From positions 930,001 to 994,000 of the forward strand of contig NZ_CP014855.1 of the NCBI RefSeq assembly GCF_002214385.1: DNA of 64,000 bases. The letters are read 5' to 3'. A program made the position numbers and the translations under genes. This DNA is from Thermococcus gorgonarius (lineage in GTDB: Archaea > Methanobacteriota_B > Thermococci > Thermococcales > Thermococcaceae). Shown one piece after another: positions 9,643 to 13,086 of the stretch (position 1 is its first letter; each line of letters opens with the position of its first letter). The notes beneath the pieces were generated by a model. It made no database searches. It saw only the letters and a list, made by a program, of their open reading frames with translations, and was not told where the DNA came from.

Positions 9643-9672
9643 GGGACCACCGGAGGATTTAGGCGAAGGATG

Positions 9673-9680: not shown

Positions 9681-9699
9681 GGTTGTCCATGGAAAGCCT

Positions 9700-9721
9700 T
9701 AAGTATCGGTACCGATACTTA
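9700..9721. promoter_or_regulatory. 22-bp perfect palindrome, candidate operator copy 1
   Basis: The sequence is a perfect palindrome over 22 bases, with core GTATCG-GTAC-CGATAC at 9703-9718. It lies at the predicted transcription start of the ATPase gene, where a bound repressor would block initiation. A second copy of the same core follows at once. Confidence 0.6.
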
Positions 9722-9737
9722 GTATCGGGGGCGATAC
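9722..9737. promoter_or_regulatory. Second GTATCG-N4-CGATAC site, candidate operator copy 2
   Basis: The core half-sites match copy 1 exactly and flank a GGGG spacer. The two sites are 19 bases apart centre to centre, close to two helical turns, so two dimers could bind side by side on one face. The GGGGG within it may also serve as ribosome-binding site for GTG 9740, so binding or RNA structure here could affect translation too. Confidence 0.55.
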
Positions 9738-9739
9738 CT

Positions 9740-10810
9740 GTGCTGTTCGATCCGAGACCGAAGGAGAGGAGGAGTGAGATATTTGACAGGGATGAAGAAA
9801 TAAAGGCTCTGCTAGAGGGTATGAAAAACTACCCAATAACACTCCTCATTGGAATACGACGAGTTGGCAAAAGCTCCATTCTCAGAGTGGCCCTAAACGA
9901 GTGCGAGGGGATTGGAATTTACATCGACGCTAGAAGGCTCTATTCCACAGGTGGAAGCGTGAGCCAGGCCGCATTGGTAGGGGAGATAAGAAACATTCTT
10001 GCAGGAAAGGGACACGTGGGTTTTTTGCGGGGAATCTCTGTGGAAAGGGTAACCATCGCGGGAGTGCAACTCAAACCAAGGGAGACCACCTTCGTTGACC
10101 TCTTGGAGTTCCTTAACTCCCTGGGAAGGAAAGCCGGCAAAAAAGTCATCATAGCCTTCGATGAGGCCCAGTATTTAAGGTTCTACGGTTCAAGGGGAGG
10201 AAAGGAACTTTTAGCTGCCATAGCGTATGCGTACGACTCCCTTGAGAGCCTGGGCTTCGTTTTCACTGGTTCCGAAGTTGGACTTCTTCACGACTTCCTG
10301 GGCCTCGAGGACTACTCCAGCCCGCTCTATGGGCGAATATACGAGGAAGTCGAGGTCAAACCTTTCCGAAGGGAGCTTTCTAGGGAGTTCCTCAGGAGGG
10401 GCTTTGAGGAGGTTAACATGAGAGTCCCCGCGGAGGAAATAGAAGCCGCCGTCGAGGAGCTTGACGGAATCCCCGGCTGGCTGGTCGAGTTCGGCTTCCA
10501 TTACTGGAAGAGGGGGGACTTCGAGCGGGCCCTCGACATGACGATGAGAAAGGCCAGGGCCCTCATCAGGGAGGAACTCCTAGAGCTTGAGAAAAGGAGC
10601 GGGAGATACAAGCTCATACTCCATGCCGTGGCGATGGGGCTGACCAGCTGGAGTTCCATTAAAGACTACGTAGAGGCCAGGGCAGGCCCCATAACCAATG
10701 CACGGCTGAGTGAACTTTTGAGGAACCTGGAAAAAATGGGATGGATAACCAAGGAAGAAGGAAAATACCGGATTATAGACCCCATTGTGGAAAAAGTGCT
10801 GAAGGAGTAG
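9740..10810 (+). CDS. Archaeal AAA-type ATPase (PF01637-like) with C-terminal winged helix
   Basis: The 356-residue product begins VLFDPRPKERRSEIFDRDEEI, the usual opening of this Thermococcales family. It has a Walker A motif (GIRRVGKSSIL, near residue 35), a Walker B (IIAFDEAQ, near residue 140) and a TGSE sensor segment. The last 70 or so residues read as a winged-helix DNA-binding domain. Function in this family is mostly unknown. The frame stays open upstream to 9605, but that part would translate the palindromes, and GTG 9740 with GGGGG before it fits the family start. It converges on argS with one base between stops. Self-regulation through the upstream palindromes is an inference. Confidence 0.82.
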   Translation: MLFDPRPKERRSEIFDRDEEIKALLEGMKNYPITLLIGIRRVGKSSILRVALNECEGIGIYIDARRLYSTGGSVSQAALVGEIRNILAGKGHVGFLRGISVERVTIAGVQLKPRETTFVDLLEFLNSLGRKAGKKVIIAFDEAQYLRFYGSRGGKELLAAIAYAYDSLESLGFVFTGSEVGLLHDFLGLEDYSSPLYGRIYEEVEVKPFRRELSREFLRRGFEEVNMRVPAEEIEAAVEELDGIPGWLVEFGFHYWKRGDFERALDMTMRKARALIREELLELEKRSGRYKLILHAVAMGLTSWSSIKDYVEARAGPITNARLSELLRNLEKMGWITKEEGKYRIIDPIVEKVLKE

Positions 10811-10811
10811 C

Positions 10812-13086
<2,275 letters not shown>

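Follow-up and report, generated by a model that had tools for sequence, protein, structure and literature searches.

In the archaeon Thermococcus gorgonarius, two copies of the palindrome GTATCG-N4-CGATAC stand in tandem immediately before the start codon of a gene encoding a winged-helix ATPase. The pair is probably a cis-acting autorepression operator, private to this gene and bound by its own product. Comparable pairs precede homologous ATPase genes in dozens of genomes, and each ATPase subfamily has its own spelling of the half-site.

Architecture of the locus

The window analyzed here is a stretch of 64,000 nucleotides (positions 930,001 to 994,000 of contig NZ_CP014855.1), and coordinates are those of the window unless the genome is named. 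The distal copy is a 22-bp perfect palindrome, TAAGTATCGGTACCGATACTTA (9700 to 9721, no strand assigned), whose core GTATCG-GTAC-CGATAC occupies 9703-9718. The proximal copy, GTATCG-GGGG-CGATAC (9722 to 9737, likewise assigned to no strand), follows at a pitch of 19 bp. A first-pass annotation had described two identical cores 19 bases apart with the first inside a 22-base perfect palindrome, and this description is exact. No other exact match to GTATCG-N4-CGATAC occurs in the 1.67-Mb genome, where the next best site carries two mismatches. Among the ∼64,000 positions of the window, the pair is also the top-scoring dyad pair at a 19-bp pitch, matching at 13 of 14 arm positions (runner-up, 11).

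The ATPase gene (9740 to 10810, plus strand) opens with a GTG codon at 9740, two bases past the proximal copy, and encodes 356 amino acids. Its product carries a PF01637 ATPase_2 domain (87.9 bits; curated cut-off 33.2) and, as had been proposed, a C-terminal winged helix of its own, which Pfam assigns to the MCM_C type (residues 284-345; 47.3 bits against a curated cut-off of 27). These are the only domains that Pfam detects in the protein, and none of the recombinase, transposase, integrase or nuclease type is found. PADLOC returned only weak, domain-level matches. With both domain cut-offs passed and a full-length match to 2QEN, the protein belongs to the PF01637/MCM_C ‘Walker-type’ archaeal family (2QEN family). 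A Walker-type ATPase family with 28 members in Pyrococcus was reportedly described in a 2005 crystallization paper. The structurally solved relatives, the P. abyssi Walker-type ATPase 2QEN and SSO1545 (2FNA), align over their full length with E-values of 1e-109 and 4e-57, respectively, and 2QEN is nearly identical to the product of a class C gene (locus L084; the classes are defined below). The literature searched yielded neither a DNA site nor a function for 2QEN or SSO1545. For context only, a divergent DHDPS-family gene (PF00701; 8761 to 9690, minus strand) lies upstream, though this gene may begin further inward, near 9643, and the convergent argS gene (10812 to 12764, minus strand) lies downstream.

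The predicted promoter (9691 to 9706, plus strand) consists of a BRE-like GGAAAG (9691-9696) and a TATA-like TTAAGTAT (9699-9706), as judged from a profile built on 93 distinct upstream regions of homologues. When these are aligned on the operator, the A-rich BRE falls at -11 to -9 and the TATA box, TTWTAA, at -5 to 0, so that the latter extends into the first base of the distal arm. Every class shows an overlap of the TATA box with that arm, and at this locus TTAAGTAT does so too. Given the usual TATA-to-start spacing of 26-27 bp (PMC4158304), transcription should begin in the proximal copy, some 26-27 nt beyond the TATA-like element and near 9725-9731. The first-pass annotation had placed both copies at the predicted transcription start and running up to the GTG codon; this holds for the second copy, which spans the predicted start together with the G-rich spacer, but the first copy touches the BRE/TATA instead. 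The proximal spacer reads GGGG or GTGG in 104 of 109 homologues, while the distal spacer is variable. Such a G-rich spacer fits a Shine-Dalgarno role, and the G run at 9727-9731 is a possible site of this kind. In Thermococcales, sites located downstream of the BRE/TATA repress transcription and those upstream activate it (PMC4158304). Since the palindromes lie downstream, repression is the expected sign of regulation.

Conservation and subfamily-specific spelling

Exact copies of GTATCG-N4-CGATAC are present in 46 of 94 Thermococcaceae genomes, usually as two copies at 19 bp, compared to 0-2 per genome for a reversed-pattern control. In most of these genomes an orthologous ATPase begins a few bases past the pair, so the motif does mark PF01637 ATPase genes, which was the check suggested at the outset; its absence upstream of orthologues, or a random scatter across genomes, is excluded by this family-wide conservation. 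Twenty-nine motif loci were read in detail, a count that leaves out some short-contig matches (e.g. in G064, G065, G068 and G085): 21 hold an intact ATPase gene, two a decayed one and six none, these six all at the same end of argS. This is the usual location, as the locus adjoins the 3′ end of argS in most Thermococcus genomes; a site in G036 (1262332) lies elsewhere. In one relative, the region 5′ of the ATPase gene (L064; G063:C68:14963-15035) holds four identical copies of GTATCGGGGGCGATAC in a row at a 19-bp pitch rather than two.

Beyond the orthologues, about 107 homologous ATPase genes were read, and in 89 of the 107 the best dyad pair lies just before the start codon at a pitch of exactly 19 bp. 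What differs is the spelling of the half-sites, which sorts the genes into classes: GTATCG in class A, to which the gene described above belongs, GTAAYG in class B, ACTTAYG in class C, ACTTACC or ACTTACG in class D, and ACTTGYR in class E. Further half-site types are ACTATCR, ACTACTG and ACTAGTA, and the remote subfamilies F, L and L173 have one palindrome only, between the TATA box and the start. The motif is strictly linked to its gene, is spelled by subfamily and keeps a fixed geometry relative to promoter and start codon.

The T. gorgonarius genome encodes six such ATPases with six different sites (genome coordinates: class A, 939740; class C, 918971; class D, 1302022; class E, 122778; two more at 216609 and 779389). 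The five other PF01637 genes of this genome, outside the subfamily, have no tandem pair. A search of the genome for further exact class A or class E sites found none and hence gave no sign of a wider regulon. Two isolated class C/D-like matches (469380 and 1557764) were considered as regulon sites and set aside; both fall within coding sequence and appear to be chance occurrences. Elsewhere in the genome, a 483-codon frame with a PF01637 match (L185; 50144-50770) lacks a tandem pair and has a single ATATTAC-N7-GTAATAT dyad just upstream. Several relatives share with T. gorgonarius an extra inverted repeat, CCTTTGCGCGAGCAAAGG, on the upstream side of the class E promoter (L206; near 123930).

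The division into site classes matches that into ATPase subfamilies, and distances between operators correlate with distances between proteins. The recognition helix also begins with residues that differ by class, reading TNARLS or TNARFS in class A, PNSRLA or PKSRLA in class B, PEPRLY in class C, NDAKFS in class D and NDSNFS in class E. In a partial Mantel test, operator distance correlated with the ATPase domain at 0.26 and with the winged helix at 0.15. As the former correlation is at least as strong as the latter, the test demonstrates joint divergence of operator and protein, not which domain reads the site. One homologue that is 57% identical to the query and has a class B site (L066) was rejected as proof that the site tracks the winged helix, because class B is the closest match for its ATPase domain too.

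Similar arrangements were seen on three contigs binned to other groups. A homologue on a contig binned as Staphylothermus (L174) has tandem ACTAGTA-type palindromes at a 19-bp pitch and is a possible case outside Thermococci. On contigs binned as Thermotogales and Methanoculleus, where the binning may be wrong, homologous ATPases (L162 and L163) have tandem GTTCTGA..TCAGAAC palindromes at a pitch of ∼18 bp and a separate Shine-Dalgarno site.

Bracketed genes and solo pairs

In some subfamilies the same palindromes recur at the stop codon of the ATPase gene, in some cases overlapping it. They were found in 8 of 12 class D genes, 6 of 27 in class C and 5 of 15 in class E, with only ∼50 bases of downstream sequence available for many of the class C and E genes; the counts are 0 of 31 in class A and 0 of 19 in class B. 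In class E, where the copies are distinguishable, the 3′ pair is in direct orientation relative to the 5′ pair. Class C genes occupy several different chromosomal places in different species, which indicates that the site travels with the gene.

One class C locus, beside a radical-SAM gene, exists in three forms. Three genomes (G047, G050 and G055) have a pair on either side of the ORF, four (G070, G022, G042 and G039) have the 5′ pair and the ORF, and 14, T. gorgonarius among them with a decayed version, have a solo pair without the ORF. The solo pair joins the outer flank of the 3′ pair to the promoter flank of the 5′ pair, which matches the expected product of recombination between two direct repeats. 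Judging from these junctions, the gene can drop out cleanly in some relatives and leave the pair behind. In T. gorgonarius, the decayed solo pair (L280) lies just 3′ of the radical-SAM gene (G000:C1:1140479-1141561), and an intact class C ATPase gene stands beside valS (918971-920020); together they look like the trace of a relocation, or of a loss and a gain.

Class A also has solo pairs, at argS, with junctions common to G013, G030, G036 and G037 and, separately, to G021 and G043. Between argS and the DHDPS gene of four further genomes (G026, G069, G067 and G066; loci L026, L213, L217 and L218), class A solo pairs are inverted, with the G-rich copy towards the DHDPS gene and no ATPase gene. 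Among the class C solo sites, 26 of 84 TATA-box positions (31%) have changed, against 17 of 350 in the palindromes (5%), a contrast whose p-value is overstated as the sites are related by descent. It suggests a role for the pair where the ORF is missing, for example binding a copy elsewhere in the genome or acting as a recombination site.

Probable autorepression and its alternatives

The favored reading, autorepression by the cognate ATPase, draws on the exact pair being kept upstream of orthologues in dozens of genomes, with the same architecture and class-specific half-sites in the other subfamilies, on the overlap of the TATA box with the distal arm in all classes together with the position rule for Thermococcales, on the class-specific beginning of the recognition helix and on the restriction of class A and E sites to their own genes. 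As in archaeal operators of the repressor type, the site overlaps and follows the BRE/TATA, and its spelling changes together with the regulator. The ATPase would bind four half-sites through its C-terminal winged helix. These alternate in orientation ∼9.5 bp apart, and would therefore lie on roughly one face of the helix, and the protein on DNA would probably form two dimers or a short oligomer. Once bound, it would cover the downstream edge of the TATA box, the point where transcription starts and the G run for ribosome binding, repressing its own promoter until released by its nucleotide state or another signal. We infer binding, repression, stoichiometry and signal alike. The ATPase or a paralogue had been put forward as the binder; the motif marks orthologues and co-diversifies with subfamilies, a pattern that would follow from each ATPase acting at a site of its own, but a paralogue is disfavored by the five other such ATPases of the genome, each with a differently spelled site.

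Autorepression alone does not explain the 3′ copies in classes C to E, nor the conserved palindromes of sites without an ORF. These features are accommodated if the pair is mainly an att-like recombination site of a one-gene cassette, its operator role being secondary or additional. A pair-ORF-pair arrangement would then arise by recombination of a one-pair gene into a solo pair already in place, with excision restoring the solo pair, as in solo-LTR formation. Consistent with this are the bracketing of the ORF by pairs in three classes, the presence of class C at several loci, the coexistence at the radical-SAM locus of three states of which the solo form is the expected recombinant, the shared junctions of the class A solo pairs and the retention of palindromes where the TATA box decays. 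However, the protein lacks a recombinase or nuclease domain, the 3′ pair is missing from classes A and B, and searches of plasmids, phages and viral contigs for a carrier found none. Occupied and empty forms with repeats at both ends are seen for class C and not for class A, which has the 5′ pair only. As solo sites keep the pair, they do not define a pristine pre-insertion site against which a target-site duplication could be read. Solo sites can moreover be read either way, as loss or gain, and ordinary homologous recombination between direct repeats accounts for the scars, so a dedicated cassette mechanism is possible and not required. We regard this explanation as unlikely. A fuller version, in which the pair is both private operator and recombination site and the ATPase binds the pairs at both ends, represses its own expression and helps its ORF to be lost or gained while solo pairs persist as landing sites, is speculative and appears quite unlikely.

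Control of the ATPase genes by an unlinked transcription factor that binds the pair would sit well with a co-variation that does not single out the winged helix. It would, though, demand a separate factor for every subfamily with its own spelling, and where the gene has changed locus the site has gone with it; we consider such a factor improbable. The palindromes could instead form RNA hairpins in the mRNA leader, given their symmetry, their place beside the start codon and the fact that some T-G dyad mismatches would become G-U pairs. But the distal copy, overlapped by the TATA box, is predicted to be untranscribed, and A-C mismatches, which would break an RNA stem, are common. T-G (90) and A-C (58) account for most dyad mismatches, against 34 for the eight remaining types combined, so that transitions of both kinds predominate. 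An RNA stem would tolerate the T-G kind only; this and the predicted start site argue for recognition as double-stranded DNA and render hairpins very improbable. Chance palindromes are a negligible prospect for a motif conserved in dozens of genomes, with the best score in the window and controls near zero. Autorepression by the cognate ATPase therefore remains the preferred reading.

Relation to known systems

The closest parallels in the same archaeal order are the TGM (TATCAC-N5-GTGATA; TrmBL1/Tgr) and TrmB (TACT-N3-AGTA) sites of Thermococcales, also inverted repeats beside the BRE/TATA, where a site downstream of the TATA box goes with repression (PMC4158304). The ATPase pair differs in sequence and spacer, in its two copies at a fixed 19-bp pitch, in serving one cognate gene rather than a sugar regulon and in the protein family concerned; with GTATCG-N4-CGATAC as site and PF01637 as protein, it does not belong to the TrmB/TGM system. 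DnaA and the Orc1/Cdc6-type AAA+ initiators likewise combine an ATPase with a DNA-binding domain, and DnaA represses its own gene (PMC8203912). Unlike in these initiators, each paralogue here has one private site, with no link to a replication origin seen. The sRkB RNA of P. abyssi, beside a putative ATPase gene, was also considered, but is a long leader RNA and not this motif (PMC3124441).

The bracketed subfamilies call to mind other elements. In RAYT/REP systems, LTR elements and integron cassettes, a gene is flanked by cognate repeats. Some ATPase subfamilies are similarly bracketed by cognate short repeats, and precise loss leaves one repeat; in contrast to those elements, there is no transposase or integrase domain and the repeats are not dispersed in the genome. 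The first-pass annotation knew of no published Thermococcales regulator with this consensus. Our literature search, which covered PF01637, 2QEN/PAB2304, Thermococcales palindromes and ATPase autoregulation mostly outside subscription journals, agrees with it, having found no report of the motif.

Implications

What had been described as a DNA signal at one gene belongs to a set of self-operators that seem orthogonal to one another; in sister subfamilies the gene stands between two such pairs, and a pair stays as a scar after the gene's loss. The pairs offer a functional lead for a large Thermococcales ATPase family that is structurally solved and functionally blank. With a cognate site for each subfamily, they provide six or more seemingly orthogonal protein-DNA pairs, making a recognition code approachable, and the bracketing and solo-pair scars represent an unexplained way for archaea to gain and lose genes.
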